Both the position numbers and the translations under genes were made by a program. The notes beneath the pieces were generated by a model. That model was not told where the DNA came from, did no database searches, and saw nothing but the letters and a program-made list of their open reading frames with translations. Source: Membranipora membranacea (lineage: Eukaryota; Bryozoa; Gymnolaemata; Cheilostomatida; Membraniporidae). From it: DNA of 64,000 nt. Shown here in pieces: positions 5,184 through 60,085 of this stretch (its first letter is position 1; the number at the start of each line of letters is the position of its first letter). The stretch lies in the NCBI GenBank assembly GCA_914767715.1, contig OU612069.1, positions 27,215,387 through 27,279,386 on the forward strand, read 5' to 3'.

Positions 5184-5662
5184 TTAGAAATGAGTGGAAT
5201 TGCCTCCAAAGAGGAAGCAACTCCACTCCAACTCAACAGCAAAATGACCATATTCCCACTTGTTTTGACTTGCTCTCTCTCTCTGATACTGGGAACACAA
5301 TCCTCAATCATATTCTTAGCTTGTTTGTTGGAGAGTAAGGTTGTATTCATTATGTGCTCTCTATTGTTAACAATAGCAATTACAGACTATTAGTGAACTA
5401 CTGTTTATTATTATACACATCAACAGATTTTAGACATCACACTGACAATCTTATTGGATATTCAAGGATATTTCATCATTACTCTTAATCTCTGGAGTTA
5501 ACCAAATTTACTTCATTAGCTGGATTAATAAGGACCACTGATAACTTGAGAAAACATCTATTCTCGAGATTATTTGACTGACAACTTTCATTGTTATAGT
5601 CGGCCAGGGCGTAGGCCCAAGCCCCTGCGCTATAATCAACTGAGTCCATACACGTTCAAGGT

Positions 5663-6442
5663 ATGGGGTTGTCTAAAGAAATGAAGCAGGCGATGGACAA
5701 ATGGTTGGAGACAGTAAAGGCGGAGTTTGCTGCAAAGTTAGATTCGATGTGCCTTGATCTGGAGCAGAAACTTTTGAAAAAGGTTGGAGAGTTGGAGACT
5801 AAGGTTCAGAATCTTGAAGGCAGGAGTGGAGTGTTGGAGACCAAAGTTCAGCAGCTGGAAGGAGATAATGGCGAGTTGAGACGGCGACTTGATATGATGG
5901 AGAGATATGACAGAGGAGATAGTCTAGAGATACACAACGTACCTGTATCATCAAATGAGAATGTGGAGGATATTGTATTAAGCATAGCTACAGCAATGGA
6001 TATGGAAATGTCACTATCAGATATCAGCACTGTGTATCGTATGCCGGTTCGGAGAGAGAAGCAGGGAAAGGTAACACCCAGGATTTACGTCAAATTTACC
6101 AGACGTTGTATGAAAAAACTAATGTATGCAAGTCGCACAAAGAAGAAAGTGACCCATGACCAACTTGGACTCGGCAGCAGCGGTAAGATCTACATACATG
6201 AACACCTCACTAAATCTCAGTCTGAGCTGTATTTCAAGACTAAAGATAAAGTGAAAGAGCTTGGCTACAAGTTTGTATGGACCCAGGATATGAACATATA
6301 TGTGCGGTATAATGAAAGAGCCAACCGCATCCTTATCAATTGTGTAAATGATCTTGACAAGCTTCAGGAAAACTCTACGTCTGAAACCAATCAGTCAGCA
6401 CCTATACTAAGACCTCGCAAACAACAGAACACATCCGGCTAG
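5663..6442 (+). CDS. LINE ORF1 protein: coiled coil plus RRM-like/C-terminal RNA-binding domain
   Basis: 259 residues. Residues about 15-90 form heptad-rich helix with LEQKLLKKVGELETKVQNLE and a second LETKVQQLEGDN, a trimerisation-type coiled coil. Residues about 95-215 (DSLEIHNVPVSSNENVEDIV, then RIYVKFTRRCMKKLMYA, KIYIHEHLTKSQSELY, YKFVWTQDMNIYVR) match the RNA-binding region of L1/CR1-type ORF1 proteins, which coat LINE RNA in the RNP. The tail is basic and polar. Start chosen at the first ATG of the open frame after the leader; the stop at 6440-6442 precedes ORF2 by 46 bp. Confidence 0.85.
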   Translation: MGLSKEMKQAMDKWLETVKAEFAAKLDSMCLDLEQKLLKKVGELETKVQNLEGRSGVLETKVQQLEGDNGELRRRLDMMERYDRGDSLEIHNVPVSSNENVEDIVLSIATAMDMEMSLSDISTVYRMPVRREKQGKVTPRIYVKFTRRCMKKLMYASRTKKKVTHDQLGLGSSGKIYIHEHLTKSQSELYFKTKDKVKELGYKFVWTQDMNIYVRYNERANRILINCVNDLDKLQENSTSETNQSAPILRPRKQQNTSG

Positions 6443-6488
6443 GTCAAAACTTCTATGAGCTTGTTACCAGATAGTCGCATCATTCTGA

Positions 6489-9296
6489 ATGTTAAGTATT
6501 GTCCATCTAAATATAAGATCTTTGCCTAAACATTTTGATGAGTTCAGACTAACTCCTGATTTGGTCAATAATGACATAATCTGTTTTTCGGAAACTTGGT
6601 TTAATGGCTCTCATTATGACAACAATTTTCAAATACCTGGTTATGTATTGATTCGTAAGGATAGGGGTTTGACTACACGTGGTGGCGGGCTGGCTGTTTA
6701 TGTTAAACAAAACATAAAATTCGAAAAAGTTGATTTGACTTCACATGGTGGGACCGAAGTTCTATGCATCGAAATTGTTATTGCTGAGTCTAGATTTTGT
6801 TTGGTCCTTGTTTACAATCCACCTTGTGTTGCAAGCACCGATGTTTCCTGTAATTTTGGAAAGCTATTGTATGCTCACAATTTACGAAAGCCAACTGTAA
6901 TTATAGGTGATTTTAACATTGACTGGTCCGGTAATTCACAAGCGAAAGAAAATCTTGAAACCCTTATGAGACTTCATCAATATGAACAGCTCGTTAGAGA
7001 GTATACTAGATGTTTTAAAGATTCTAATACTACGATCGACTTACTTTTCTCAAATGTTCAAAATTTAGTACCTGAACACAAGGTTATAAAAAGTGATATA
7101 AGTGATCATTTTGCAATTCAAATGAAAGTTAATCTAAAAAGGCCTAAGGCCGGCTTTTCTTATGTCACTAAGCGAGATTTCAGAAATTTTGATGATCTTG
7201 AGTTTTTTAATAGTGCGAAATCTCTCGATTTTCATATTGTAGAGAATGTTCACTGTGTTCACGAAGCAGCAGATATTTTAGAATCAAAAATAGAATTATT
7301 GGTGGAGCAGTTTGCACCATTTAAAACCCAACGCTTAAAGCAAAAAAACAATCTTTGTTGGAAGTGTCCAGTGGCATCTAAACTAACAAGCCTTAAAAAA
7401 GATGCATTTCAAAAGTTTGTTGAGACGGGATTTGATAAAAATTCTACTGCCTGGGAGCATTATCGTTTAATCCGTAACAAGGCAACAAATGCAGTAAGAG
7501 ATGCCAAAAAGCGAGCAATGAGAGCAGTTCTTAATGATAAAACATTAGACCAATGGCAAAAAATCAAAATTTTCCAAGGTAAAAATTACCAAGGCAATAA
7601 TGTCATTCAAGAAATTGAATCTGAAAATTGCAACACTTCTGAAAGCCCAGTGATCGCTGAATGTCTAAATAGGTATTTTTCTAGCATTGGTGCCAATCTC
7701 AATGAAGAGGCTAAGCTATTGTCCAATAAAAGTTACTCAGGCTTTGATAATGATAAAGCTTTCAGTTTTCCAAAATTTGCTTTTCAAGAAATTACATCGA
7801 GTGAGGTGTCTAAATATCTGCACACATTGAAATCACGTAAAACTGGGGGATTAAATCAGATCCCTGCCTTTATTTATAAAATCCTAGAGCCTTTGATTCT
7901 GAATCCATTGACACATATTGTTAATCTGAGCCTTAAATGTCAAGAGTTTCCAGATGTGTGGAAAAAAGCCTTAGTAATTCCAATTTTCAAAAGTGGCAAG
8001 AAAAGTTTGCCAAATAATTATAGACCAATTTCGCTATTGCCAATATTAAGTAAAGTCCTAGAAAAGATAATAAATTACCAAATTCGTGATTACCTGGAGA
8101 TTAATGATCTAATAGCCTCTCGCCAATTTGGTTTCAGAAATGGAACATCCACTGATCAAATTTTAACTCAACTAGTCAACAAATTTCGTTCCCTGCTGTC
8201 AAAGCACGAGTCAAAATTTGTCACAGTTTCTGCACTTGATATCCGTAAAGCTTTTGATTGCGTAAACCATAAGATCCTTGCCAGTAAACTGTTAACGAAA
8301 TTCAATTTCCACACTAATGCATCAAATTTAATTAAAAATTATCTTTCAAGTCGAGAGCAGGCCATGAAAGTTAATGGTTGTGTATCTGAATGCAGTCGAG
8401 TTATAACTGGTGTGCCGCAGGGGTCTGTACTTGGACCACTCCTGTTTATCATGTTTATTAACGATCTGATGGAGCTCAAAAATTGTTATCTATATGCTGA
8501 TGACTGCCTACTAGTCACCAGTGGGGAAAACCCAGACATTTCCACAAAACTTATGGAAAAAAGCATTCATCAAGCATCCAGTTGGTACAGTGAAAATTGC
8601 CTTGTTCTAAACAGCGGCAAAACGGATGTCATGACCATTTCTAATAAACGTAACATCAAACCTCCGGAACTTAAATTTAATAATCTCATTTTCAAACAAT
8701 CTGACAAAATTAAGTACTTAGGTGTGATTCTTGATAACAAATTAAATTTTAAATCTCATACCAGTAAAATTAAACAAAAACTTTATCCAATAGTCACCAA
8801 CTTTCAACGTAATAGAAAATTCCTGACACCTAAATTAGCTAAGCTTTGGTACATTGGACTTATACGTTCTAATCTGGAATACAGCTCTCCTGTTTTATTT
8901 ACCACAAACGACTATGTCAAAAAAGAATTTTTAAAAATTGAGAATAGATGTTTGAAAATTATAGACTATAACAGTTCTAAAGATAATACTCGAAAGACCT
9001 ACAACATCCCTGTTTTAACTTTGCGTTTCGAATATTTGTATCTGCTGACGTTTTATAAAATTGTTAATAGTTTAGTCCCAATAATTGATACCAATCTGCT
9101 CCCCGAGAAATTAACTAGTGAAACTCGGCTTGCTAAAAGTTCTGGGTTTAGACTATCCAAGGAAAATTTTAGATTTGCTTTAGCTAATTTCGGTGCTCAG
9201 AAGTTTAACGAATTACCCAATCATGTTAAGCTGAGTCAATCCCTAGCTACATTCAAAAATGCCACTCGGAGCCACGTCCTCAAACTTCTCAATTAA
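6489..9296 (+). CDS. LINE ORF2: AP-endonuclease plus reverse transcriptase
   Basis: 935 residues, uninterrupted. Residues 1-215: APE-type endonuclease with HLNIRSL, FSETWF, the GDFNIDW box and SDISDHFAIQ, which nicks target DNA. Residues about 480-760: reverse transcriptase with PNNYRPISLLPILSKVLEK, ASRQFGFRNGTSTDQ, ALDIRKAFDCVNH (motif A Asp), ITGVPQGSVLGPLLF and LYADDCLLV (catalytic YADD). The C-terminal thumb region contains IKYLGVILDNKLNF. No RNase H or zinc knuckle seen. The EN-RT order and QFGFRNG block suggest the Jockey/CR1/L2 group; exact clade uncertain. All catalytic residues appear present, so the element could be competent. Confidence 0.9.
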   Translation: MLSIVHLNIRSLPKHFDEFRLTPDLVNNDIICFSETWFNGSHYDNNFQIPGYVLIRKDRGLTTRGGGLAVYVKQNIKFEKVDLTSHGGTEVLCIEIVIAESRFCLVLVYNPPCVASTDVSCNFGKLLYAHNLRKPTVIIGDFNIDWSGNSQAKENLETLMRLHQYEQLVREYTRCFKDSNTTIDLLFSNVQNLVPEHKVIKSDISDHFAIQMKVNLKRPKAGFSYVTKRDFRNFDDLEFFNSAKSLDFHIVENVHCVHEAADILESKIELLVEQFAPFKTQRLKQKNNLCWKCPVASKLTSLKKDAFQKFVETGFDKNSTAWEHYRLIRNKATNAVRDAKKRAMRAVLNDKTLDQWQKIKIFQGKNYQGNNVIQEIESENCNTSESPVIAECLNRYFSSIGANLNEEAKLLSNKSYSGFDNDKAFSFPKFAFQEITSSEVSKYLHTLKSRKTGGLNQIPAFIYKILEPLILNPLTHIVNLSLKCQEFPDVWKKALVIPIFKSGKKSLPNNYRPISLLPILSKVLEKIINYQIRDYLEINDLIASRQFGFRNGTSTDQILTQLVNKFRSLLSKHESKFVTVSALDIRKAFDCVNHKILASKLLTKFNFHTNASNLIKNYLSSREQAMKVNGCVSECSRVITGVPQGSVLGPLLFIMFINDLMELKNCYLYADDCLLVTSGENPDISTKLMEKSIHQASSWYSENCLVLNSGKTDVMTISNKRNIKPPELKFNNLIFKQSDKIKYLGVILDNKLNFKSHTSKIKQKLYPIVTNFQRNRKFLTPKLAKLWYIGLIRSNLEYSSPVLFTTNDYVKKEFLKIENRCLKIIDYNSSKDNTRKTYNIPVLTLRFEYLYLLTFYKIVNSLVPIIDTNLLPEKLTSETRLAKSSGFRLSKENFRFALANFGAQKFNELPNHVKLSQSLATFKNATRSHVLKLLN

Positions 9297-13321: not shown

Positions 13322-15210
13322 GGTAAGTGACACAGTTAAAATAAAATAGCCTAGAATTAATGATTGGTCATTGTGTCCATGATATGATTGTTATACTTAT
13401 GAAAAACAGGTCAAAGACTACGCGTTTTTTTCACCTTTTCATACTTATTGATGAGGCCCCAACTGCTATCTGCCCTCACCCTTCAATGCAGTGCAAAGTC
13501 ATAGTCAGAAACATAATGAACTCATTACAATCATCACTACAATATAATAGGTTATTTATATACTCTTATACTCAGATACAGTGCACTGTGGGCGTCATGT
13601 CATGGACTTCAACCTGCGGCATTACACCCATGCCCGCCTCTATGTAGCGACAGGTTAGGGAGTCAAGCAGCTTTGGTGAGGGTCCCCCTTGGGTTGTCAT
13701 CGTTGACAACATCTCACCTGATAACCTGTAATCACCTCCCTGGAGTGCTCTGGTATTGCACCTAATAGCTGTGTGCCATCTTCAGCTACAACAAATAAGC
13801 ATTTATGAGGTTATGCAACTGGTACTTTGACTGAGAAGTGTACACAGTGATATTCACCACTCGATTCGAAGGCTGAGCATTAACAGTGTACGTGTATATA
13901 TATATATGTATATACATATGGCATGTATACATATATAGCACATATATATATATATATTCAAATCTGTGCTTTTAAGTGTCATCTGTGTGTATTTGGCCCC
14001 AACTAAGTGTCACTCAAAAATAAGGAGTCATTTTATATGACCCACAAAAAAATCATGTCTCAAATCCTCTTAAATAATCATGTTGGGCATCCTTAACCCA
14101 ATAGTAATTAATGGTAGATAAAATAGCCTGGCATGGTTGGACAACTCCAATGCAAAGACTGCCCTACACACTGATAGCCACTACATATATTTTATATATA
14201 TATATATATATATATGAATAACTCATTGTCCAGGGTTTTTATGGGTACAATAGTGGGATATATAATATATGACACTTTATTGCACAAATGTGTGTATATA
14301 TATATAGAATGATAATAGGGGTTTTATGTGACCGTTATGTGTACTACCCCATACCTTTGAGTTCCAGATGATTGTGGGGTCTTTGAAGGGCCCATAACAA
14401 AATGTTTCATGCGCTCTAAACTTACAACTCTTGTATACATAAGTATTATACACAGCCATATAAATAATATGTATATATGAATAAAATGTTGTACACTTGA
14501 TGAAGTGAATCCATTAATACAGCTTAACTTTGTTTCTCAAAATATAAATACAAGACACGCTGGTAATTAAAACTCCCATGTCTGCATCACAAGTTTCATT
14601 CTGTTATCCTGCAACCGATACTAAGTTTGAATATGAACAAATAAGGCCGGTCATCGCAGGGATCAACCAGGTACACACCCCAACACCAGAAGCAAAAATA
14701 GTTCCGCTTCTATGATACCTCAGAGGTATCATAGAAGTGGTATCGACAGGATTCCTTATCGTGAGCTTTCCTACACAACTGAATCATAACTCAGCCACTG
14801 TAATAGACAGGCTGTGACTGCAGGTGGTACGGATCATGGTTGATCAATATCGGGTAGGATATTGTATCTACCTATACCTAATTTTTTATATTATGGGTAG
14901 GAGCATAGTGGAGGATGAAATATTTCATTTTCTCACCCAACATTTTCACCAGATCAATTAATTAATTTGGTGTGACCTAAATTGTGGCTTTTTTGCAGAA
15001 AGAACTCATCAACATCAGGATTTCCAGTGGTGGAATCGTCAAAGCGGCAATGCTCCTTTGCCTGAGTGATTGATTGTTCAATCTATAAACCTTCAATTTT
15101 CCTCCTTCGATCTTTGCGACGTTTCTGGCAATAAAGTTTGACTTGGCTCTGTATTTGCTTCACAAGGCATTATGAAATGAGTATTGACGGAAAGGGCACT
15201 CAAACATAGC
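13322..15210. other. Repeat-rich noncoding stretch
   Basis: Contains (TA)n runs at about 13,895-13,965, 14,190-14,215 and 14,290-14,305 and a short palindrome at 14,707-14,737. No coding exon or RNA gene recognised. Confidence 0.5.
14707..14737. repeat. 31-bp perfect palindrome
   Basis: Two 15-base arms, CTTCTATGATACCTC and its exact reverse complement, around a single A. It could be a hairpin or a duplicated dimer site; no gene lies next to it. Confidence 0.8.
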
Positions 15211-15279
15211 AAGCATTGTACATATTTGCCAAAAATAGTTCTAAAACGATTAATATTCTGGGTAGTAGATATTTGTTAT

Positions 15280-16330
15280 CTGTTCTTTCTATATGTGAGG
15301 ACAACTCCTCTCACAGAAAATCAGGCCAATCAAAAAGGGCCTACATTCACATTACAAAATTAATAAAATCACGACAGGCAATTTTCGTTACACAAATGAC
15401 CGATATATATTCCGAATACTAATGATCTATTTTCTGACTTATTTTAGATCTATAATGGCACAATGGGACAGCACAATACATCAGATATTATCTCCTACAC
15501 ATCTCTAGACTATAGTAATATAAATAAACATGTTGGTGGCTTCATAGGAATACACCACTATAAGTGTCAATCTGTGCCATAGACAAGGATAGGAGAATTT
15601 TGTTTTCTCTGTGAATGTCAAAAAATACCTAAAATGATGTACATCAAGCCGCCGCGCCTCGATGCCCGACATGTGCCATAACACTCCGTCACAAAAGAGG
15701 GAACAGACTTGTTCTAGGACCAAGGTAACCTACATACCCGGTGCTACCTCCACAGCTGAATATTACTACTCAGGAATAGGACTTAAAGTCATCGGTATTG
15801 TGGTGCTGATGGTAATGGAGAGAGAAATAGGACTCGGTCTGAATGGGAGTTAGTGTTTATGCCCCTAATGCCATAGACTTACTAAAACCATAATGACTTC
15901 ACTTTCAAAGACAAATATAAGATGTATCATTGATTTTTTCTACACTTCCCAGCAGTATGCACTTTTAGTTATTAATAAGTACGGAGATACCACACTGCAC
16001 AAACACAGTTCGCCTCTATTATACATCTGTATGTCTAGATGCACACATGACATGATTGCCCATCATAAGATACGGCTCATCATCTTGCCTTTGACCTATT
16101 AGTTTTTTTATCTCAAATTGCCGAAGCTCTGTGCTTTCTTTCAAGTTTGATCTGGTCTGCCTAAATTTGGAATTATTCCCCCTCGAGCCACCGTAAAACA
16201 TACCATTAGAACTAGAGAGGCCAAAATGCAAGCACTCTCAAATATATTTATAATGACTTGTATAATTAGAAGAAAGTAACAAAAAATTATTCTAGCGTAT
16301 AATTGATGATTTTGGTGGTACATTGTTACT
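15280..16330 (+). pseudogene. SLC15-like transporter fragment A: inverted, internally deleted
   Basis: Plus-strand copy of part of the duplicated transporter block. 15448-15531 is the 84-bp exon (IYNGTMGQHNTSDIISYTS) with AG and GT borders. The following intron matches copies B and C (through ACAGACTTGTTCTAGGACCAAG) and then jumps at about 15,725 straight into the middle of the last exon (VTYIPGATSTAEYYYSGIGL to MEREIGLGLNGS, stop 15851-15853). The exons between (172 and 109 bp) and the acceptor are deleted. Flanks 15,290-15,340 and 16,160-16,200 match the surroundings of copy C (56.2 and 50.95 kb), showing one inverted duplicate with a deletion. Confidence 0.8.
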
Positions 16331-16984
16331 GCATTTTAATTAGTTAAAATGGAATGATATACTGTGTGTGCAGCTCATCAGAAGAATTGCGTATCTTCCT
16401 TGCGCTCTTGTTACATTTTGCTACATGCAGAATACATTAAAACACTTATACATTCCATGTTTTGATAATAACTTCCTATAACGATGAGCAATACAATATT
16501 TATTACTCGTATAGCCGTCAAAAGTGTTCAATTCTTTGACTGGATGAGCTGCAGTCTGAGATGTTTAATATTTTGACTGGATGAGTGATCTGGTATGTTT
16601 AAATCCTTGATTAGGTCTGAAACTTTTACACTCAACCAATCACCAGTCATCCCCATCTTACACTGCCTGTAAGTGATAATGTGAATCATGTCATTGTTTT
16701 TGTTTTCAAATGGCCTTGACTGTGATGCAGATTGTTATTTACCAGTGGTGCAGATGACCACCCAGTCTCGTTTTTACTAAGCAGACAACTCTAAGATTGC
16801 GTCTGATGGCAGACCTAACTACCCTAGTTGGTGAGTTAACCCTATGACCTTTCAATAGTTTTCATACTGAACCTTAGCAGTGATTCACTGGTGTACATTG
16901 GGATATTCGGCATTTCAGGTGAGGCTAGCTATCTTCTCTGGCAGAGGGCAAGAGTCTGGGGGCTCAGACTGTGTGTCTGGGTAT

Positions 16985-18035
16985 GTATATATTCCATGTT
17001 TATTCTGGAGAGGAATAAGTATTTAGGACTTGTACCCAGAAAACAGAAAAAAAATTGATAAAATATGTTGTAGAATTAAAAAGATATGTAACTAAAAATC
17101 AAGAACAATGACAGGTAAAATTACAAACTACACACAGGCATTAATTAGCAGTGAAACGTTACACAAGTTAAAAAACAATAGCTAGGGAAAGAAATTTTGA
17201 ACATTGCAGCAGTAGGCTAAAATGAAATTATAATAACTGACTCATTAATTGAGAAGTTTGAGGACATGGCTCCGAGTGGCATTTTTGAATGAAGCAAGGG
17301 ATTGACTCGGATTAACATGATTGGGTAATTCGTTAAATTTCTGAGCACCGAGATTAGCTAAATCAAATCTAAAATTTTCCTTAGATAGTCTAAATCCTGA
17401 ACTTTTGGCAAGCTGAGTTTCACTAGTTAACTTTTCAGGTAGCAGATTGGTATCAATTATTGGGACTAAATTATTAACAATGTTATAAAACGTCAGCGGA
17501 TACAAATATTCGAAACGCAAAGTTAAAACAGGGATGTTGTAGGTCTTTGGAGTATTATCTTAAGAACTGTCATAGTCTATCATTTTCAGACATCTATTCT
17601 CATTTTTAGAAAATTCTTTTTTTACATAGTCGTTTGTTGTAAATAAAACAGGAGAGCTGTAGTCCAGGTTGGAACGTATAAGGCCAATGTACTAAAGCGT
17701 GGCTAATTTAGGTGTTAGGAATTTTCTATTGGATTACAGTTTTTGATTAATTTTACTGGTATGAGATTAAAAATGTAATTTGTTATCAAAAATCACACCT
17801 AAGTACTTAATTTTGTCTGATTGTTTGAAAATGATATCTGTTTTACACCTTTTTAGAACAAGGCAATTTTCACTGTACCAACTGGATGATTGTTTCCATA
17901 AGTTTTGTTGATATTGCTGGGTTTCGCCCACTGGTGACTAGTAGGCAGTCATCATCATATAGATAACAATTTTTGAGCTCCATCAGATTGTTAATAAACA
18001 TGATAAACAGCAGAGGTCCAAGTCCAGACCCCTGG
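16985..18035 (-). mobile_element. 5'-truncated copy of the two-ORF LINE
   Basis: Reverse complement of the 3' third of the LINE at 5.6-9.6 kb, from the AATAAACATGGAATA end (about 16,990) up to the RT palm (FINDLMELKN near 17,985-18,015). 17245-17520 stays open (RFEYLYPLTFYNIVNNLVPI, ending FKNATRSHVLKLLN); further 5' there are shifts and stops. The truncation point lies at the edge of the minisatellite. Confidence 0.85.
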
Positions 18036-18465
18036 ATGGCAGAAGTCACTTTTCCGACTTCAGATTTTCGACCAGTGAGAAGCCAGGATGGCGGGTGTCA
18101 CTTTTTTGACTACATATTTTCATCCATTGAGAAGCCAGGATGGCAGGTGTCACGTTTTGGACTTCAGATTTTGGACTAATGAGGAGCCAGTGTGGCAGGT
18201 GTCACTTTTGCGATCTCTGATTGTAGTGAAATGAGGAGATAGAGTAACAGGTGTCACTTTTTTTACTTTAGACTTTATAACATTAGGGAGCCTGGATGGC
18301 AGGTGTCACTCTTTCGACTTCAGATTTTGGACCAATGAGGAACCAGGATGGCTGGTGTCACTTTTGCATCCTCAGATTTTGGTCAAATGAGAAGCCAGGA
18401 TGGCAGGTGTCACTTTATCGACTTTAGATTTTGGACCAATGAGAAGCCGAACGGCAGGTGTCACC
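18030..18465. repeat. Minisatellite, about 52-53 bp unit, about 8 copies
   Basis: Repeated unit with the core GGCAGGTGTCACTTTT, then GACTTCAGATTTTGGACCAA and TGAGAAGCCAGGAT. Units are divergent, and one (around 18,235-18,290) is much more degenerate. Confidence 0.85.
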
Positions 18466-25539: not shown

Positions 25540-26310
25540 GTTATCTTTGCAATGCAGATACTACATGAGGTCGGAGTGAGTGAGTTTCGAGTTGCTCTCC
25601 TATTTAGCGACGGCTGGCCAGTAGAATGGAAGCGACTCAGATGGAGGGAAAGAAAATTAAACTTGGGCTATCTGGTTATTTTTGCTTTAATATTTATGAA
25701 CACTTGTTTTATTAATTATTAGACCAATTCTAATAGCTGTCACATATCATTTAGGAGTTGCCCCACCTCACTTAAAGTCAAGGCTACTCCCATTTTACAT
25801 GTCGTTGGAGTACAAAGGTATAAATTAGTCTTGTCATTCCGCCATGTGGCCGCGTGACAAGTCTAGGCATGAATAACATGACTCAGGCAAGGACCAGTCA
25901 GTCACATAGCGGCAAACAGATAGTGCAGACTTCTATCATATTTTGTTCTGAGGAATCATATTATACCTTGATACCAACTACATCATCATAATCATTTAAC
26001 CCAACTTATTATGGATCCTTAAAAAAAGAAAAATAAAGAAAAAATAGGACGCCACATAAAATAAAGGAGCACAAAAAGCAAAACTGAGTGAAGAAGGCAA
26101 GAGTGGGAAAGGAACTATACTTATGGCTGTTTACTGTACAACATGCATATTCGTGAGGATGGCTAGATTACCAATGTGAGGATTATATAACCTGTAGAGT
26201 CATCGCAGAGGCTGGCGGCTAGTAGAGAAGAAACTCCACAGGCAGGTTTTTACTGAGATATCGCTTGAGTTAGTCAGATATTTGTAAGAGTTTCATATAT
26301 AACACACTTA
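25540..26310. repeat. Intron segment shared by copies B and C
   Basis: Matches 54,810-55,590 nearly end to end (GGCTACTCCCATTT, ACATGTCGTTGGAG, CATGACTCAGGCAA in the same order). It marks the segmental duplication rather than a gene. An exon joining the 172- and 109-bp exons might hide here but could not be defined. Confidence 0.7.
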
Positions 26311-27719
26311 CTTGTGGATGTAACAGTGAAAACGCTGGAGGCAACAGAACAGATCTGCCCTGCCACTAGTCTGTGTAGTAATGATATTCTGAAGCGAGTT
26401 CTCCTGCTTATAATTTCGGTAACAGCGTATATTATCGGTATGAATAGAAGACTTGAGCCTTGTCCAATCACTGAATATTCCAGCTAAAACAAGATATATT
26501 TTAAAATCATAGAGCAACTTGCAGCACAGCAGTCCATAGAGATACTCAAATAATACAATTCTCAATATATGAAAAAAAGACATTATCAAAATGGATAAAA
26601 TGAGTTCATAGTTTACCTTGGTCCTAGAACAAGTCTGTTCCCTCTTCGTGGCGGAGTGTTATGGCACAAGTCTGGCATCGAGGCGTGGTGGCTTGATTAA
26701 TAGAGGGATCAAACTGGTTCTACCTTTGTCAATTGCACAAGCTAACACTTATAATGCTGTATTTACATAAAGCCACCCACCTGTTTATTTATGTTTGTGT
26801 AGTTTAGAGATACATAAGAACCATTGCCTGATGTAATGGGCTCTCCTATTGTACTGTTATAGATCTAAAATAAAAAGAAAATATTATCAACATTATTTCA
26901 AATATTTTACCAGTGATTGGTATTAAATTATTTGTCCCATCTTGCCACAATTTCGGTACTTTTGTAATGCGCATGTAAGCCCATTCTGATAGGCAACAGG
27001 AGTTGTCCTCTAACAAAGAGAGAATGTTAATATCTGTTATCAAGAATATTATTTCCTATAAAATGATTTTGGGCAAAATATGTAGAGTGCTTGTTGTGTC
27101 TGAATTCCCTTTCCTTCAAAAATCATTTCATAATCACAACGTTTCCATATGTCGAAATGACATCGGTTTGAGGGTTAATCGATACGTGGGATTAGCACTT
27201 AGGTTCCGCACTCATCGGTACGCATCTCTTCATTTGAATACAGGAACAGTTTTGATTCCTATTGACAATATAAGGTTTTTGGTCATTCGGTTGACCACTC
27301 ATTCGAAGCATGGGACCATAGTGATTGCTCCATGTGATGCAAATACACAGCCAAGTCAAACTTCATCGCCAGAAACGTGGCAAAAATTGAGGATTGTAAT
27401 GATTTATTTGTTTGAGTTTGAGTTGAGGGTTAATAGATCAATTGAGCGAATGCAAAGTAGCTGGAAACTTACATTCAAAGTAGCAGGTAAATTGAGTGAG
27501 TAAGAAGTCGGCATCAGACAGATGAGTACACAGAAAAACTTTCCTAGGTTAGCCCGCTCTTTTACTGAATTTTCAGGATAATCTCCTCCATTTCGTAAGA
27601 GGGCTACGGACAGAAATCCTTCCTCCTCTTTTCTGTGCCTGTTTGAATGATACAACATTCTGTTAGTTACATTTCATAATACTGTATTCCTAGAGCAAGT
27701 TTGATTGAAGTTGCCCGTG

Positions 27720-27727
27720 GTCCGGTC
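27720..27727. repeat. Left target-site duplication GTCCGGTC
   Basis: Eight bases directly repeated at 30,913-30,920 on the other side of the inverted-repeat element. Seven of eight match the GTCCGGAC consensus known for Drosophila P-element insertions. Confidence 0.8.
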
Positions 27728-28497
27728 CATAGACTTAATATACTACCTAGACAGGACAATGCTTATGCTTCACTGATCATAATGTGTCCCACTTAAATAG
27801 CACGACATGACGTAATTAGTTTGTGCTGTGAGGCATAGTTTACTATATGCCATTCAATGAAATAATGTGAAAAATCAAGGGACGCCGCGCATGATATCAG
27901 CTCTTGTCCGGCCCCTAATTATTTAAACACAGAGAAAATTTGTGAGTTTGTGTAAAAGACCGTTCCGCACGAGATGGTATAAAAATTGACTCCTTAGGCG
28001 AATCTAGAGCGAGAACAGACCTGATAAGTTACAATCATTAGCCAATAAATACTGAAACAAATACAGCCATCTACCACTACTATTCAAATGCACAGAATAC
28101 CCACAACACAGTATCACAAATATTTTGTTGGATGAGCCAGATCAAAGCACCACCACCATCATCATAGATTTTTGCATAAATATTCCTAGTCATGACTGAG
28201 CACAACCTGCTCAGCTTGGATACCTTGTTACAAGTTTTTACTGCAATTTTTTTGTCGCTTCATGAGGAAGAATAGATCTGTGCTGGAAATTGAGTATGCC
28301 AACTCCAGGTATGTATGTATGTATCATGAAGCTAGGGTACGTGGCAAATATATATATATATTAAGTCTATGGACATCTCTCATCAATGAAATAATATAGT
28401 AAATCAAGGCACGCAGGGTATAATACCAGCCAAATTATATTAGTTCTGTTTTAATTTATGAGATACAAATTATCAAAACAAATACAGCCCTGTACTG
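27728..28497 (+). repeat. Left long terminal inverted repeat of the P-like element
   Basis: Pairs with 30,141-30,912. Each arm is composite: an inverted copy of the terminus (TTAAGTCTATGG) occurs about 650 bp inside, at about 28,366-28,378, followed by a direct, diverged repeat of the outer subterminal block (CAATGAAATAAT, AATCAAGG). Confidence 0.85.
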
Positions 28498-28723
28498 AAA
28501 CAGAAGATGAAAGATACTATGTAAACAAAGTGGTTACTGGTTTTAATATTCATACTTCGTTGAGATTATTTATTTATATAACATGAACCTGCAGCCTGCT
28601 GTCTCATCTTCACAAGTAAGCCCAGCTGCAATTTTACTATCATCAGTTGCGAGATACAAGGCAAACATAGAAGTTCTGGATATAATACCCACGCCGCTCA
28701 GTTTATAGGAAAACTATTTTTAA

Positions 28724-29688
28724 ATGAGCCTACAGCCTGCTACCTCGTCTTCACAAGATGATAATCTGGCTGCCTCATCTTCACAAGATGATAATCTTGC
28801 TGCCTCATCTTCACAAGATGAAAATCCTGCTGCTACCACTTCACAAGATGATAAAGTAAGAAACAGCCCAGTGGTGGCTCTCATGTATGCATTGTCATAT
28901 TTCCGTCTTTATTGGATTGAATTTTTTGGCATAATTTCTGCTTGTCCCATCCATCTAAGATCTAAATCAATTAAATATTGTCCTATAATAATACCCACAT
29001 CCTTCTATACATGCACATAAATTTAAGGCTATAGACATAGTAAATAATAATCGATGGGTGTGATAAAATTTGAATGTAAGAAAAAAAAGGTGGAACGATA
29101 GTGATGGGGCGGGGGGGGGGGGGGGGGCTGGAGGGAAACTATTTGAGATGACAATTCTGATTTACTCCCGAAATATCTAACTCAGAACTGGCACAGCAGT
29201 CAAAAAGTGTGAGTAGACTTAATCGGTGATCTCGCAGATCTTTCTTGGCCATGCTGATGCTCCTATGAAATTGATTTTACAATTTCTGTTTATCATATCA
29301 AAAGCTGTAGTAGTTAAATGATAATTATTTGTATATGTTATCATTTGTGATGCTTTTAAAAAAGTCATCTAGAAACTGGTGTGCTGCCTACGGCTGTGGA
29401 AATACCCCGGCAGGAAATCCTAATTTAAGCTTCCACGCCTTCCCCAGAAATAACGAGGAGAGACTAAAGGTATGGGTTTCGGCCGTTAAACGCAAGAACT
29501 GGACTCCATCCAAATATGCTGTTCTATGTAGCGAACATTTGAAACGAGATACATTTAGAAGGCCTCCTGGTATGGGTGGGAGAGCTTTGCTCAAAAAGGA
29601 TGCTATCCCAACAATTTTCCAATCCTTCCAACACTATCTACAAACCCCTAAAAGTGAAGAGATATACGCTGGTCAGAATACACCATGA
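28724..29688 (+). CDS. THAP-domain protein encoded by the P-like element
   Basis: Exon 1 (28724-28855) encodes MSLQPATSSSQDDNLAASSS and further Ser/Gln/Asp repeats (a 30-bp tandem unit), and ends AAA before GTAAGA. Exon 2 from about 29,359 (after AAAAAAG) is in matching phase 0 and encodes a C2CH THAP domain: WCAAYGCGNTPAGNP, FHAFPRNNEERLKVW, CSEHLKRDTF and a final AIPTIF. Zinc ligands Cys, Cys, Cys and His and the conserved Trp, Phe and Pro are all there. After the domain only about 25 residues remain before the stop, so the product is a DNA-binding module without catalytic part. Alternatively exon 2 starts at its own ATG (29,329). By analogy with truncated KP protein of Drosophila it could bind element ends and repress; that is inference. 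Confidence 0.7.
28741..28856 (+). repeat. 30-bp tandem repeat in coding exon
   Basis: Four copies of a unit like GCCTCATCTTCACAAGATGA encode Ser-Ser-Gln-Asp-Asp repeats. A related, spliced-looking copy stands upstream at 28,595-28,620. Confidence 0.8.
29111..29127. repeat. Run of 17 G
   Basis: Uninterrupted G tract inside the P-like element core, just 5' of the THAP exon. Length is likely to be polymorphic or misassembled. Confidence 0.9.
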
Positions 29689-29774
29689 AACAACCAAACT
29701 CGCAGCAAACACTGGCAATAAGCGCTCCAAACTGAGCAGGCTTATTGTGTTCAGTGACTCAGTCATATCTAATT

Positions 29775-30060
29775 TTCAGCGATCGCTGATAGTGATAGTG
29801 TCTCGTTTGGAAATTTTGCAGCAATCACCGATAGTGGTAGTTTTCTAGTCTTTGACCCATCCGCAAAATTCAGTATAATCCCACAGTATATATTTTTTTT
29901 GATAAGTAGGTGTAAGAAGTGGTTAGCTTACATTGCTCTACTAATTTGATTAATTTTAACGTATACTGCAACCAGTCATATCTAACTTTGCAATGCTCGC
30001 TGATAGTGGTAGTATTTTTAATTTTTGTCGTGCCCACAACAGCAATAGTGGTAGCCGTTA
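29775..30060 (+). repeat. Short repeated motif GCTGATAGTGGTAGT
   Basis: Four variants, at about 29,783 (GCTGATAGTGATAGT), 29,826 (CCGATAGTGGTAGT), 29,998 (GCTGATAGTGGTAGT) and 30,043 (AGCAATAGTGGTAG), all in the same orientation between the THAP exon and the right inverted repeat. They could be internal transposase or THAP binding sites. Confidence 0.55.
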
Positions 30061-30140
30061 GCCTTGGTCGTGCCCTCATAAATTAGTATAATCCCGCAGT
30101 AACAGCCCTCTGTTTTGTCATGTAGTGATAAAAGTGATTA

Positions 30141-30912
30141 AGTACAGGGCTGTATTTGTTTTGATAATTTTTATGTCATAAATTAAAACAGATCTAATAT
30201 AATTTGGCTGGTATTATACCCTGCGTGTCTTGATTTACTATATTATTTCATGGATGAGAGATTACCAAAGACTTTATATATATATATATATATGTCACTT
30301 ACCCTAGCTTCATCATACATACATATCTGGAGTTGGCATACTCAATTTACAGCACAGATCTATTCTTCCTCATGAAGCGACAATAAAATTTGCAGTAAAA
30401 TCTTTTAACAAGGAATCCAAGCTGAGCAGGTTGTGCTCAGTCATGACTAGGAATATTTATGCAAACATCTATGATGATGGTGGTGGTGCTTTGATCTGGC
30501 TCATCCAACAAAATATTTGTGATACTGTGTTGTGGGTATTCTGTGCATTTGAATAGTAGTGGTAGAAGTGTTAAGAGTAGTCGGCTGTATTTGTTTCAAT
30601 ATTTATTGGCTAATGATTGTAACTTATCAGGTCTGTTCTCGCTTTGGATTCGCCTAAGGAGTCAATTTTTTATACCATATCGTGCGGAAAGGTCTTTTAC
30701 ATAAACTCACAAATTTTCTCTGTGTTTAAATAATTAGGGGCCGGACAAGAGCTGATATCATGCGCGGCGTCCCTTGATTCTTCACATTATTTCATTGAAT
30801 GGTATATAGTAAACTATGGCTCACAGCACAAACTAATTACGTCATGTCGTGCTATTTAAGTGGGACAGTATTGAATGCTATTGGCCTGTCTAGGTAGTAT
30901 ATTAAGTCTATG
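30141..30912 (-). repeat. Right long terminal inverted repeat of the P-like element
   Basis: Reverse complement of the left repeat from CAGGGCTGTATTTGTTTTGA to the terminal GTCTATG, with scattered substitutions and a (TA)n difference near 30,275. Confidence 0.85.
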
Positions 30913-30920
30913 GTCCGGTC
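30913..30920. repeat. Right target-site duplication GTCCGGTC
   Basis: Exact copy of 27,720-27,727. Confidence 0.8.
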
Positions 30921-32819
30921 ATTCCCATTCTACTGGTGCGGCTCAAAACCTAAAAACAGGCAAATTGAATAATGCTTGATCTACTGTGGTCCTGCGGCTA
31001 CATCTAGCCTGGTAAGTATAAGCCTAACGCTGCATCTATCTGTGAATCTATTAATTGAACAGACAAATTAACTGCATGAACACTTTATTGGCCCCTATTT
31101 AAATCTTTAAAACCACCACTGTCAAAATCTGAGTGTCAATGTCTCAAAGGTAAATGATAGCTTTTTGAATTATTGGTCTAATTAATTGTCTGTCCAATTG
31201 ATAACCCACATGTTTTTCATCATGAACAGACTGGCCATAGTAATTTCACACATAATGCTATCAGGCGCAAGGTTTTACAGATTTTACTCACTTTCTCCTT
31301 TTCCATGCCTGCTTCCATATACCTGCACTGTCCACAATCACGCTTACATCCGGTCGGTACTCTCGAATCTTTTTTGTACAGATCAATAAAACATATGAAC
31401 TTCTAAAATGTAACTGCAACCTATGGGGTCTGTAATGTTATCCAAAGCTATTGCCAAGTCTATTGTCAGATAGGTGACTGACTGTCAAGGTTGCAATTTT
31501 GGAGATTTAAAGGAACTTCTAGATCAAGAAAAGGACTTCTGGTTTTGAATCAAGAATGAAAACATCACCCACCAAGTATCAGGATCAAGGTGCTCAGAGT
31601 GGCACTGACATCCACAAATATGGCAAAGCTTACAGCCATGTGGCTAAATTTCTGTTTGAAGTGGTGCAGTAGCTTATTTGGGTCAGTGTCAGTTAAACTA
31701 TAATTGTATGTGACTGCTGCGCAGAGCACCACAGAAACTGTGTCCCCGAGCTTCCAAAACCAGAAATACAAAGCGTAGAGCTTCCTCACTTCATCTCTAC
31801 TAGTCATCTGACAACAATAAGCATACACAGAGTTTTCTTGTGTTAGTAGTTTTAAATGAGATGAGACACACAACAGCGAGGTACACAAGAGCCATCCCAT
31901 CTAAGTCCAGATAGCCCAAAGATATTTGAGGTGTAAAAGAGCAGGCAGGAGCCGTATATACTCCCTGTGAGTTGTTGTGAGGTACCATTTTACAGTTTAA
32001 GTTGCTTGGCAGCTCAAACATCACTCCAGATATATATCCAAACCTATCCAGTCATATGAAAATCGTTGTCGTTAGTAACCAAGGGTGCCAATACCAGGAT
32101 CAGATGAAACAGGGCCTTTAGGGGTGGTATTAATTTAAGTTAGCGATCAACCTTGTAATAAGCAAGGGCTTGGTACTCGCTCCGTAACTAGGCACAGAGT
32201 TTGCCTAGTTGAATGTTGCTACCAAATGTTTTCACTGATGGGGCTTCAAGTCCAAAATAGCACATTGATCCTAATATTTCATATCACATACCCAATCCAT
32301 ATGAGTACCGTCCCACACAGAAGCATTCTTGTTTTTCTGATCCAAGCATCAGAAATCAGCCCACTAATGACAGCGCATAGGTTGATGATAACGATGGAGG
32401 CTATGTGCACCGATTGAAACCTTCAAAGATAGAAGCAAGTAAAATATGTTATGTCTTTTTTTCAAAATTAAAATTAGTTTATGTATATTGAAGTAAGTTT
32501 ATATTGAATCCTCGGACTGTTTGATGATAACAATTCACATTCACTAATTGAATTGGAATTGAAACTTTACAAGTTTAACCTCCAAAACTGTGTTGAGAAA
32601 CAAGGAAGGAGAGCTGCTTCAAAATACTTTTATGTAAATACCATGGATCGGTTGCATAAAAAAACACTTGAGTCAAACCTCATTGTGAAACCTCTCACAA
32701 AGGCCAAACATTCTTATTCAATGTATAATATGCATTGGCCATAAAACCAATCTGAGCAATAGAAAAATGGACAAAACAAGGAAATATTGTTTTTACAACT
32801 CTACTGTCGGGAAAGGGAA

Positions 32820-32950
32820 AAATTTTCCGGCTTTCGATTCCAGGGCAAGCCAACTACCTCTTTGTTGCCATATCATGGAACTCCGGGCTGAGCGAAACCA
32901 AGATCATACAGCACTATCATAATCGCCGTCACATTGCCTGATGGACACAT
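32820..32950 (-). pseudogene. Partial duplicate of SLC15-like exon 1 end in intron 1 of copy B
   Basis: The stretch with GGAACTCCGGGCTGAGCGAAA and ATCATACAGCACTATCATAA repeats the 3' end of exon 1 (compare 33,040-33,085), and is closer to copy C (59,050-59,095) than to copy B's own exon. It is truncated and lacks a clean donor; a remnant of unequal exchange or tandem duplication. Confidence 0.6.
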
Positions 32951-33594
32951 AGTGATACAGGGTTGCTTGCCTCCTTATGCCCTTTAAAACTTAATTTCCA
33001 AGTAAGGTTAACTTACTTTTGAGTGACATTATCAGGCTTTGGAACTCCAGGCTGACTAAATAACGGATCATACATCACTATTATAAACGGCATCCATGTA
33101 GCGAGTGTTCTGATTGCCATGCAGCGGAAGAAATCACACAGCACAAGTCCACATACAGCTACTTTCTGGTTCTGCTGTGAGAAGATGTCACCCAGAGCGG
33201 ATCTTGAGCTCAGAACTCCTTTGTGTCCGTTGATTCTTTCCGACGGTGATACATTCAAAGGGGGCTCTACCTCGGCACTATTATTAACCAAGTTGTGCTC
33301 CTCCACTGTGGTGGTAGACGTTGCAGTTCCCATGTTCAGATAGCTCTTTTGTGGTTCACATACGGCTCTAATTTTCTGCAAGCTCTCTGAACAAATAAGA
33401 TATATGTACCTTGGCTGACAATATGGACAACTATCAAGTCCAAACAGCAAGATGCAGCCCGGATACAGCACTGAAATAATTCACACCATGTCAGATATTG
33501 TATGTTGAGATAAGCTTTTCCCAGTGAAACACAGTTAGTCATGTACTAGAATCATTATCTCAATTAGAATGATTTCTCTTCATATGTTTACAAT

Positions 33595-34679: not shown

Positions 34680-36525
34680 CCTCAACAGAGCAAAGAGGAA
34701 AAGAAAGAGCCCCATAGAATGGATGACACTTCAATGTGTAAGTTGAGTTTGCTCAGTTTGTAGCAAGGAGTATCTCCTTGGTAGTAGTAAGGAAGTAGAA
34801 CTGTAAGTCAGTATTGTTATTAATGATGGTAACGACAGCAAAGAGAGCATTAGACCTGTGTGTGTGAGATGGTCAAAGACCCTACCCTACAGTGTTGGAC
34901 GAATCAAGCTGATGTGGGTTGGTGAATGATGATCAAATATCTGCTACCTAACATCATACTGATTTCAATAATTGAATAATATGTTTTACTTGTTGTATAT
35001 AGCAAGACTCTTAGGCTATAGTATAATGTGTCCATTTTTAGGTAACTCCCTCATGGTATGACAATGTGCTCATGAAATCAACAGATGACAGGCTATGGCT
35101 GGAGAATATCCGACTTCCCAAGTCAGTGATCGAAAGATTAGCGGAAGAGGTAGTGCCTGCTATGGCCCCGAGTGATTTGGCAGTATGACAGCCGATACCC
35201 ACTTTCAAAAGGTAATAAAATACAGACTTTCCCCCCTACTCACCACCAGCAGTCTAGTCCCGCTTTTATATTTTACAGACCTGCAACACAGGATTCAGTT
35301 TATTAGGTAGTATTCTTTTTCGAAGACAAATAACAATGTGTTGACTGAAAAGCTCCGTCATATGGTGATACTTAGACTGTTCAAGGTTTGAATACTCCGG
35401 GGTATAAAACTATGTAGAAAATGTTTAGTATACACTTACGACGTAGAAAAATATTTACAAGACTTGCTGTTACAACTATTGAGGATATGACATTCATCTG
35501 AAACAAAATTGGCAGCTGATTTATCCATTCTTTCAGTGATGCACATTAGAATATCAAGATTAAAATTATTTCTGTTAAAGAGTTTAGACGTGTTTGGTCG
35601 TTCTCCCTCCGTGGCTGATGCTGTTGTTGTCAACGAAAAGATAGTGATATATACCGAACTACTTGGAGTTATGTTAAGGTCCTATCCCAGCCTCTGGTGT
35701 AGGCCTATAAGCAAGCTTTTCTGTTATTAATAATCATTTTTATTTCTTATTATTTCAGGATATGTATAGCTCTATACAAACTGGCTTCCTGTGGAGAGTA
35801 TCGTGCTGTTGCTAAAGCGTTTGGAGTCAGCATTACTTATTCTGCCAAGCGATGTCTGCACGGAATCGGCAGTATATCGGATTGTACACAACAGAAGATG
35901 CTATCAAAATCACCACCAGAACAGAAGCCAAATATCCCGAAAATATAGGGGCTATTGATGGCTCTCACATTGCCATCATACCTCCAGCTGATGGTTACGC
36001 TGACTTTATATGTAGAAAAATGTATCCATCTATAGTACTACAAGCTGTTGTAGATGTCAACCTCAAGTTCAGGGATACATATGCTAACATTCTAGGGTGT
36101 GCACATGATGCTGCTGTGTGGAGGCGCTCACTTCTGTTTGAAACAATTAATCGCTCAATGCCCAAAAATGGTAGAGTTATAGATCGCCACACTGTACCTC
36201 TTCACATTTTGGGAGACCCAGCATATATATTATCTACTGCAATTATTAAAGGGTATGTAGGACGCAACTTTTCACCCATTCAGGAAAGTTTCAATGTCTA
36301 TCACAGCAGTGCCAGGATGTGTGTCGAGATTGCGTTTGGCAGGCTAAAGAGCCGATGGAGGATTTTATAAAAAAGCGTACGGATCTCGACTACTGTTTTG
36401 CACCAGAGATCATCACTATGTGTTGTATCTTGCACAACATATGTGAAGAACATGATCACAAGAGACGGCTGTTCCCGCAGATGCTGGGCCATACGCTCAG
36501 CCCGAACAACCAGCTGACAGTCTAG
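34680..36525 (+). mobile_element. PIF/Harbinger DNA transposon transposase, degenerate
   Basis: 35852-36370 encodes the DDE nuclease core: ENIGAIDGSHIAIIPPADGY (first Asp), VNLKFRDTYANILGCAHDAA, HILGDPAYILS (second Asp), FNVYHSSARMCVEIAFGRLK and SRWRIL (Glu). Upstream pieces fit the N-terminus: 34,680-34,735 (AEIEALNRAKRKRKSPIEW), 35,040-35,190 (WLENIRLPKSVIERLAEEVV) and 35,758-35,850 (CIALYKLASCGEYRAVAKAF), the last joined to the core by a frame change. After RWRIL a TAA follows, and the C-terminal ITMCCILHNICEEHD continues in another frame (36,319-36,525). Catalytic Asp, Asp and Glu remain but the frame breaks suggest it is dead, unless introns account for them. Ends and 3-bp duplication not identified. 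Confidence 0.8.
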
Positions 36526-51438: not shown

Positions 51439-54400
51439 CTAGTTCTCATTCAGACCCAGTCCTATTTCTCTCTCCATTACTATCAGAACCACGATACTGA
51501 TGACGTTAAGTCCAATGCCAGCGTAGTAATACTCTGCTGTGAAGGTAGCACTTGGAATATATGTAACAGCTAAATTAACTAGAGCTGTGAAACCATCGAT
51601 TGAGTAAAACATACCCATAGCTGTGGCCTGCATCGAACTAGGTGCAGACAGTATAGTCAACTCATAACCTGTGAAATAAATAAGAGTATAAGAGATAATT
51701 TGGTGTTTACCTTAACACGATTCCAATTTCCATGTTGCTTAATCCTAATCCAGCTTTTATTTTTTTTTATGAATGAAGCTATAGGATGAAGTTTTGAATT
51801 TTTTTGTTTTCAACAATTCAATTGAGAAAAATTGCTCAGAAAAAGAAGAAAAAAATCTGAGGCAGAAATCAGAATGCATCATCAAAGACTTCTCTGTGAT
51901 TAGCCAGCAACAGACAAAGGGAAACCATCACAACTATTGGGCTATGGTGTGAACTTCCAAGTCATAGAGAAGATAGAAAATCTAGCCTTCAAAGTATCGG
52001 TCCATCAAAGCAAAGATTAGGAGGAGCGTGTCTGCCGTAACAATGTGAAACCAATCCTTGAGCTACTGGACCAAACCAGCAAACGTTACATGGGCAACAT
52101 AAGAACAAATGATAAACATTGCCTGCACAATCTAGTCGAGTGTTACACACACCAGCCAACAATTACACACCGGATGGCCCGCCTGAATACGGTTACCAAA
52201 CCAACATCAAGAAATGCTCTCAGGTCAAAATGCCCTATCATCAAGTACTGGCATGACTAAATGAATCTTTTATTGTTATCTGTGACTTATATTTTTATAC
52301 AACGTGAGATTTTTTAAGCACTCTCATTTTTAAACACTTTCAACCATATTGAATAGATCAGTAATGGATTTTCTCATCATTGGCTTAATTCTTGATCATT
52401 AATATATCCCGTTATAAATAATTTCATGGATGGAGGACATCCTCACAGGACAGCAGCAGAAAGTGGTTATTTATTTAAGAGTCACAAGTGGGGCATGAGA
52501 CATCGGGTGTCCCGCAAGGTTCAATTATCGGACCAACAATGTTCCTCTTCTACATAAATGGCCTGCCAGATAACATACAAGTCAGTAATGTAACTGTTTG
52601 CAGACGGCACAGTAGTCTACAACACCACAGACAGCCACCTGCGCTTCCAGGAAGATCTCAGAAGACTAACCGCCTGGGCATCCGGGTATGACATGGAGTT
52701 CCACCCATGAAGTGTCAGCATATTATGACAATTCCAAGGAAGTGGCAGCCCGACACCCAACCACTGACATTACATGAAACAGTCATACCAAGAGCAACTA
52801 ATGTCAAGTATCTAGGTGTCACCCAAGAAACCAAGATCACATGGCACACACGTTTACAACATCACTTCAAAATCCAACTCAATCATCTGCTTCATACGCC
52901 TGTTCTTGAGTATGCCTCTGCTGCTAGGGATTCCATCACTGACGGCCTGACCACTTGTTGAAAAGGAGTACAACAAAGAGCTGCTGGCATAATCAGCAGC
53001 ATAAGGTGTACTGACCATGAGACCAGTACAACAGGTTTCCTACAACAGATGAACCTGTCTCTGCTCTCTGACGGCAGACGGGCTCGCAGACTCAAAGTCT
53101 TCAGCGGGTATCGCCAAGATAACCTGGCTGTGCTCTCAAACTACATCACCAAAGCCACTGCCCACTGCAGACGCTCATTCTGCATGCGCACCGCTCGAAA
53201 ATGTGTTGGCAGCCACGAGCATGCTGTTGACACCCCTAAACATTTAGGGTTGGAGCTGTTCATGTCCAAAATTTATATTCGACATTGGACTGAATAACCA
53301 ATTGTGGAACAACGGTTTCCGATGTCACAGCTGATAATGCTTGCGCCGGAAACCACCCATCTTGCAGGCAAACGTTCAGGTAAACAGGGAAACAGACAGA
53401 CAACATTCACACATGTACTTGTCAAAATAATACAGTTAGTTAAAAACAATGTGAGGGAAATTGGAAAACAAAGCCTTGCGGCCGAATATCCCCTAGACTT
53501 CATGGTATAATACCACCTGGTACATACCGGCTGTAATTAGTTCTTATGTATCCTGGTATGAACGGAAAATTTTGGCGTACATAAGCCTCGACGAGTGATT
53601 AGAGTAATCTCATCAAATAAAACAACTCTGACATATTTTTGTGATATTTTAAGGTAGGATGTCATTAGATGTAGAGTAGACTTGCATGTATTCAGGCAAA
53701 CAATCACATGAGGGTACACCTATACTCATTACATGTGTTATTTTCTGCAATACTTGTACAAGCTACACTAAAACCAATCCCACTTTTCCACTAATAATAG
53801 TGAGTTGAGTTGGTACCACTTAATCATTGGCACCTCCTTACTCGTATCACACTAACATACCTCGCATCATCAGTGAAATGTTGTGAATCACATGAGTAAT
53901 TTTAAGGGCGGTAATGATAGTCATCAATACAGGGTGAAAAAAACGCTAATACATCTCTCATACACGCATGAGAAAAAACTGACAAGATACGAAGATCTGG
54001 TGACACAATGCCAAGACAAAGGATCGAATTGCTAATTATTAGCAGTGGATTTACTCCATGACGTATGCTCAACCTATGTGCTGAGAATCGTCAATAATCC
54101 AGAACATCTGCTGAGAAACCGCCTAAAGAACAAAACCAATGCAAGACCACAGAGATCAGTAAGAAAGTGTCAAACTGATGTCTATATAAATCGGTCACGA
54201 ACTGTGAAATGCAGCAAGGCAATCTTAAAAAACAGACTGTCTGGCCTAACAAGTTTAAATTGTTTCTGTTTTACAATTTATTATTTTCTCTCTCCAAGGG
54301 GGCTTTTATCTCGATGTAAACATCTTTGGCCAAAGAGTATATATTAAACAAACAAAAAAACAAACAAACAGTGGTACGCACACCACTGTATGATGTGCAG

Positions 54401-59497: not shown

Positions 59498-60085
59498 ACC
59501 ATGTGAGATATGGTATTTTAAGATCAGCTTATCTCAGCTGAACACAATTAGTCATTATTGTAACTCGTGCTGATGTTTATCTCCTCATATTTGATAAAGA
59601 TGTGTCATTCAAAGTTTGCCAGTTAGTGATTTAAGGATTATTGATTGCATAATTCGGCATCAAATTTAAAACAACAATCAACTTGGTCATTACCTGAATT
59701 TTTTTTACTCTCAGCTGTTCTAGGGTCATAGTAAAATTTAGGCTGTCGACCAACAGAGGAAAACCATACAAACCAGACCAAACGATTTTGCATTTCAGAG
59801 TTATGATTTTTCAGAGATGAAGAGGGAAATAAACATGAAAGTTGAAATATCATTGGGTTCTGGGATGATGTGGTTTCAAGCTTTAAACCATGGAATTTTA
59901 CAAGCCGTACCTTTGACAATGGTATACAAATACAAGCATGAGCAGGGAAAGATAAACTATCAGAGTCAATTGTTCAGAGTAAGTTATCACAACCGTAATT
60001 ATTGCTAATGATAAGCCCACATACAACCATGGTCACAACTAGAGAAGATTGTAACGTTGGCGAGTATTAACACACCGATTCAGCT
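59498..60085. promoter_or_regulatory. Divergent intergenic region between copy C and gene D
   Basis: About 590 bp separate the outermost coding positions of copy C (minus) and gene D (plus), so both promoters probably lie here. No clear TATA box or conserved site could be picked out. Confidence 0.4.

Follow-up and report, generated by a model that had tools for sequence, protein, structure and literature searches.

The window, a stretch of 64,000 nucleotides of the Membranipora membranacea genome (contig OU612069.1), harbours a single element of 3185 bp (27728-30912) with exact 16-bp ends; a BLAST of the element against the window found no further copies there. CATAGACTTAATATAC begins at 27728 and its complement closes at 30912, and through CATAGACTTAATATAC the ends begin with CA, as do those of Drosophila P. 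The flanking 8-mer GTCCGGTC was present only at the two duplication sites (Table 1) when the whole window was scanned. When the left and right arms are aligned, 727 of 758 columns (95.9%) are identical and a further 37 bases fall in gaps; the alignment score was 1263.5, compared to a maximum of 39.5 in 200 shuffles. The THAP frame inside the element matched PF05485 with 61.1 bits (E 1.7e-16, cut-off 23.9). Exact ends, long inverted repeats, an 8-bp duplication and a THAP exon had all been described in the original prediction and were confirmed; its left arm (27,728-28,497) was correct at the start, while the end lies at 28502. The element also contains a long G run (29110-29128).

Table 1. Features of the element and its insertion site, in positions of the window
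Feature	Position	Strand	Basis or remark
Left target-site duplication, GTCCGGTC	27720..27727	.	Sequence
Left terminal inverted repeat, 775 bp	27728..28502	+	Arm alignment; at least 41 rows in own genome
TCCCACTTAA, candidate THAP-binding site, position 60-69 from left end	27787..27796	+	8/10 to the presumed Drosophila P consensus
Inverted internal copy of the terminal 15 bp, inside left arm	28357..28371	-	0 or 1 mismatch in 21/21 aligned copies
Candidate upstream exon, 44 aa, about four 30-bp repeats, GT donor 28856	28724..28855	+	Predicted; in frame with THAP exon
THAP-only reading frame, 112 aa, C2CH spacing and AIPTIF box	29350..29688	+	PF05485
Deletion junction CCCT, common to both sides of the ~3.1-kb segment kept by the long C2 copy	29646..29649	+	Comparison with C2 copy
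Diverged direct repeat, 70% (29760-29888 and 29973-30101)	29760..30101	+	Inner region adjoining right arm
Right terminal inverted repeat, 778 bp	30135..30912	-	Arm alignment
TCCCACTTAA, position 48-57 from right end, spacing 12 bp shorter than left	30856..30865	-	As left copy
Right target-site duplication, GTCCGGTC	30913..30920	.	Sequence

The element is absent from a diverged tandem paralogue of its flanks (54815-59555), which supports the view that it is an insertion; approximately 110 bp around the junction cannot be aligned with the paralogue, and the empty site is consequently approximate only. The paralogous tandem regions (25580-33542 and 54815-59555) share pieces that are 76-88% identical, with the P-like element in the first only, and further partial matches to them lie at 15103-15885 on the minus strand. 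Elsewhere in the window there is a non-LTR retrotransposon (5636-9296), with an ORF1 containing Baculo_FP_2nd and an open 935-aa endonuclease-reverse transcriptase frame; a second, partial and reversed copy of such a retrotransposon (16982-18034) adjoins a 52-bp tandem repeat (18034-18464, 8.3 copies). A DDE_Tnp_4 transposase piece (35816-36370) and a 29-bp minisatellite (54369-54571, seven copies, 97% matches) were also observed. Rfam and tRNA scans of the window returned nothing.

We searched the M. membranacea genome (339 Mb, 18 contigs) with the left arm. At least 41 rows were obtained, with 40 of the 547 first-look candidates scored, so that all counts are lower bounds. The rows correspond to 37 distinct elements including the window copy (three rows are right arms and two rows belong to one element). 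Twenty of the other 36 elements were read as long stretches and 16 at their ends only, and three left flanks of the 20 came from the end-only reads. An exact 8-bp duplication was present in 27 of the 37 elements, that is, in every element with both ends found; of the remaining ten, no right end was found in the region searched for eight, and no left end for two. In L021, which is counted among the 27, the right end is altered and was located via the left 8-mer downstream. Five copies at G000:C7:6.09-7.47 Mb have a common duplication and common flanks and, judging from these, are one insertion duplicated along with its surroundings; the 27 duplications therefore represent 23 independent sites. 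Divergence from the family's own consensus was 0.16-0.60% in 21 aligned copies (window copy included; L033 is cut at 3140 bp with its right end not found, and L038 is a duplicate of L037). This low divergence indicates that the family is young and that the 3.2-kb form has spread recently through the host genome. A 16-mer of the element end also matches 10 viral contigs, which was taken as chance.

The original prediction had drawn a P-type target preference for GTCCGGAC from the window site, and expected GTCCGGAC-like 8-mers to recur at other insertions. GTCCGGTC does fit GTCCGGAC at 7 of 8 positions, a fit reached by only 5 of the 63993 window 8-mers, two of these being the duplication itself. 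However, the preference was not borne out by the other insertions: among 24 independent sites (the 23 above and that of a long copy on contig C2, see below), the window site fits at 7/8, one other at 6/8 and the remaining 22 at 0-4, so that only two sites reach 6/8 or more. The mean fit exceeds the background (2.91 vs. 1.77 of 8), which is ascribed mostly to an outer G and C. G was found at position 1 in 18 of the 23 sites and C at position 8 in 18; with the long C2 copy added, G1 was found in 18, C8 in 19 and both in 14. A weak palindrome extends past the duplication to 14 bp (2.74 paired positions vs. 1.80 in the background, 23 sites), and its score was reached by 1 of 20000 resamplings. The target motif of hobo, a hAT, is given as GTNCGNAC in Table 4 of PMC3276498, and the window site fits it at 7/8 as well. 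Hence, this single site could not separate a P element from a hAT, a reading with which the duplication length of 8 and the CA-starting ends also agree. A lone insertion site says little about the target consensus of a family.

The distinction came from longer relatives. The protein of a JGI record (P0002) extends the element's THAP domain into a coiled coil, and gave 163 matches in the M. membranacea genome in a search that did not consider introns. Many of the matches listed stop at residue 36-50, where the deleted form would be expected to end, while on contigs C2 and C11 they continue past there. At the C2 and C11 loci, element positions 343-1922 are found at 92-93% identity to the window element and are followed by transposase sequence. 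The long C2 copy (C2:35473890-35480308, 6419 bp, running from 35480308 to 35473890, all but approximately 1 kb of it read) has exact 16-bp ends and the 8-bp duplication TTATCAAC on both sides. PF12017 (71.4 bits), PF21787 (102.3) and PF21788 (106.8) were detected in its frames (piece L075:416-1621), and PF21789 (45.5) in L094:606-1196, also on C2. The first three families were found in the C11 locus as well (L074:617-1549), beside the same left arm. The 402-aa piece of L075 matched the Drosophila P transposase 6p5a with E 3.4e-15 over query residues 18-380. P-type HTH, RNase H and inserted GTP-binding domains are thus present in the long C2 copy, but not in the window copy. The same applies to a coiled coil after the THAP domain, which is predicted as a helix at residues 78-148 of P0002 (single-sequence model), has a counterpart in L075 and is missing from the window copy. 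The search revealed no uninterrupted transposase of the element's family: on both C2 and C11, the best P0002 match crosses one TGA and one TAA. Among 20 P0002-match loci screened for additional complete copies, none showed an end pair with an 8-bp duplication.

Window-form sequence breaks off at element position 1922 and resumes at 1919 beyond the transposase, and arithmetic on the C2 coordinates gives the window form as lacking approximately 3.1 kb after the THAP domain. Judged from this alignment, the window element is an internal-deletion derivative. Divergence between the long C2 copy and the window form amounts to 2-8% over the stretches that were compared, which makes the former a relative of the latter and not its source.

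With P-type transposase domains between the same ends, the element is almost certainly a non-autonomous cut-and-paste transposon that belongs to the P superfamily and has giant inverted repeats like those of Galileo. The superfamily named in the original prediction was therefore upheld. The genome search that it had proposed, with the arm, for copies and a longer relative yielded the 37 elements and the long C2 copy with its P-type domains; another transposase between the same ends, or copies without an 8-bp duplication, would have spoken against it, and what we found were P-type domains and 8-bp duplications. A hAT element with a hobo-like target is scarcely credible, given that the long copy with the same ends has P-type domains and matches the P transposase in the PDB. 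THAP domains are present in more than one transposase family, and a Kolobok or another THAP-bearing transposon might accordingly be considered. Kolobok duplicates TTAA, however, whereas the duplications at the 24 independent sites are 8 bp long and vary in sequence, and the long copy has a P-type transposase; we regard this origin as extremely improbable.

Matches to the GTP-binding domain were found in 102 places of the M. membranacea genome, and in none of 14 control genomes in the same search. Two of them lie in 762-aa open frames of other, putative P-type transposases (G000:C3:34639376 and G000:C11:7308816). A 526-aa open frame with THAP, HTH, RNase H and GTP-binding domains (L085:616-2193), whose surrounding 3.3 kb has no BLAST match to the element, probably represents a separate P family. 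Five clustered P0002-like loci with a right-type end nearby (L076, L077, L079, L080 and L082, G000:C8:15.12-15.34 Mb) show 86-89% identity over residues 2 or 11 to 66. No relatives of P0002 or of the THAP frame were found among viral contigs, nor any via alignment A1 in prokaryote genomes.

The THAP domain is the part of the transposase left in the window copy. Longer proteins with the element's THAP domain were sought, and none of the seven candidates reached E 0.001; a structure model of the THAP frame (mean pLDDT 46.7) was too poor for use. In 9 of 20 copies, 18 bp (29497-29514, residues NWTPSK) are missing from the domain, dividing the copies into two subfamilies. According to PMC7776569, repressors are often encoded by small non-autonomous P elements, the 207-aa KP protein of Drosophila being an example, and the THAP-only frame could have been retained as a repressor of this kind, aiding the spread of the derivative. 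An open frame of 106 or 112 aa is indeed kept in 18 of 21 aligned copies. Nevertheless, we consider a repressor quite unlikely: codon variants look neutral (14 of 16 distinct ones alter the residue or give a stop, 0.875 vs. a neutral expectation of 0.78), nearly half of the copies examined lack those six THAP residues, and the frame stops short of the coiled coil.

The two ends of the element differ in their spacing. Both arms have identical first 28 bases, continue with unlike spacers of 30 bases (left) and 18 bases (right), and are alike again from TCCCACTTAA, a candidate binding site scored against what we take to be the Drosophila P transposase-site consensus. A literature search on CACTTAA as a P site found no paper. 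Eighteen copies, among them L037 and its duplicate L038, could be scored at both ends (L021, L029 and L033 were unscorable on the right); in 17 of these, the inner 14-mer begins at 61 (left) and 49 (right). The spacing is 61 and 50 in L019 (offset 11), and likewise 61 and 49 in the long C2 copy. In Drosophila P, the spacers from the terminal repeat to the transposase site are 9 and 21 bp, also 12 apart, in the account of PMC7776569.

When approximately 235 bases beyond the spacer are compared, the left and right arms show 8 differences within the window copy and 9 within the long copy, and the left arm of the window copy differs from the right arm of the long copy at 8. Between the window and long copies, the left arms differ at 16 positions and the right arms at 6. 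The smaller differences within a copy (8-9 vs. 16 between left arms) look like the outcome of sequence exchange between the arms, with the spacers exempt: end and spacer together show 0 mismatches in 60 bases (left) and 0 in 48 (right) between the window and long copies. We tentatively suggest, with more doubt than confidence, that the 12-bp spacing difference is an ancient, selected feature of the superfamily, that copying between the arms is blocked or selected against at this place, and that a 12/23-like pairing rule is kept despite the symmetry of the arms. Against this, the spacer is not the sole unequal place, as an insertion of 15 bases near position 340 also sets the arms apart; moreover, the two strands of the window together contain CACTTAA 11 times, and we estimate the chance of its lying within approximately 100 bp of an end at roughly 1 in 70. 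TTTAAACA, as in the zebrafish subterminal repeat, was not found in the first 120 bp of either end (five occurrences in the window, on both strands).

The history of the arms is partly recorded in the inverted internal copy of the end (Table 1). This copy is present also in the long loci L074 and L075 and is thus older than the deletion. Just inside it there is a 48-bp direct repeat of arm sequence (79%). The giant arms might be composite, consisting of two inverted smaller elements of approximately 644 bp (27728-28371, with 15-bp inverted ends) around a captured middle. In its favour are the nearly unchanged inverted end copy in the left arm of all the aligned copies, its counterpart with two mismatches in the right arm of 20 of the 21 (none was found in L021), and the adjacent direct repeat. 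A composite origin is nonetheless unlikely, since the arms continue for 131 bp beyond the inverted end copy, and the inner end has no flanking 8-bp duplication in L090-L092.

We propose that a P-type transposase made elsewhere in the genome would act on the element. Its THAP domain would bind near each end, and the long-spacer left end would be paired with the short-spacer right end, using GTP. Cutting would take place at the CA...TG termini, followed by insertion where an 8-bp target has G and C at its two ends, the 8 bp being duplicated. The extra arm length would be unneeded for cutting, having presumably arisen by extension and by copying between the arms.

According to the original prediction, no P element with such an architecture had been described. 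This does not hold for Galileo of the Drosophilidae, a P-superfamily element whose repeats are given as approximately 0.3-1.2 kb (PMC3688188, PMC3573991). Among the matches listed from literature outside Repbase and subscription journals, no further giant-repeat case in the P superfamily was found, and a search of the mollusc literature returned no paper. In the accounts of PMC3688188, PMC3573991 and PMC4168063, Galileo is placed in the superfamily by its transposase, which has a THAP domain; its arms grow by internal repeats and are longest in non-autonomous copies; and the THAP domain binds at approximately 70 bp from the end as well as in the arm repeats. As proposed for Galileo, the extra arm length of the present element may hold further THAP-binding sites. 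Both have giant inverted repeats with internal repeats (short internal inverted repeats are described for some Galileo groups), and in both a palindromic target motif extends past the duplication. By contrast, the duplication of Galileo is described as mostly 7 bp (consensus GTANTAC or GTATTAC; D. willistoni provides three cases of 8 bp), whereas the present family has 8 bp at 24 of 24 independent sites, which share mainly the outer G and C; Galileo is known here by description. The element was kept apart from Galileo on the basis of these differences in the length and motif of the duplication.

Drosophila P has the domain order of the long C2 copy (THAP, coiled coil, HTH, and RNase H with an inserted GTP-binding domain), and shares with the present family the 8-bp duplication. 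If the candidate site TCCCACTTAA is indeed where the transposase binds, the two would also have in common the 12-bp difference in left and right spacing, which PMC7776569 describes for Drosophila P. Its repeats are 31 bp, compared to 775 bp here, and its target is GTCCGGAC, which is not the case in the present family. Zebrafish Pdre2 is a similar P-like element outside insects, with CATA ends (CATACCTGTCAAC), an 8-bp duplication and internally deleted copies; unlike the present element, it is described with 13-bp terminal and distant 12-bp subterminal repeats and no continuous giant repeat, within what PMC10983969 reports of its structure.

The family is young and abundant, belongs to the P superfamily, and combines giant repeats with duplications of 8 bp. 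Natural copies and long relatives coexist in the same genome, and this makes the role of the long arms and the need for unequal end spacing testable.
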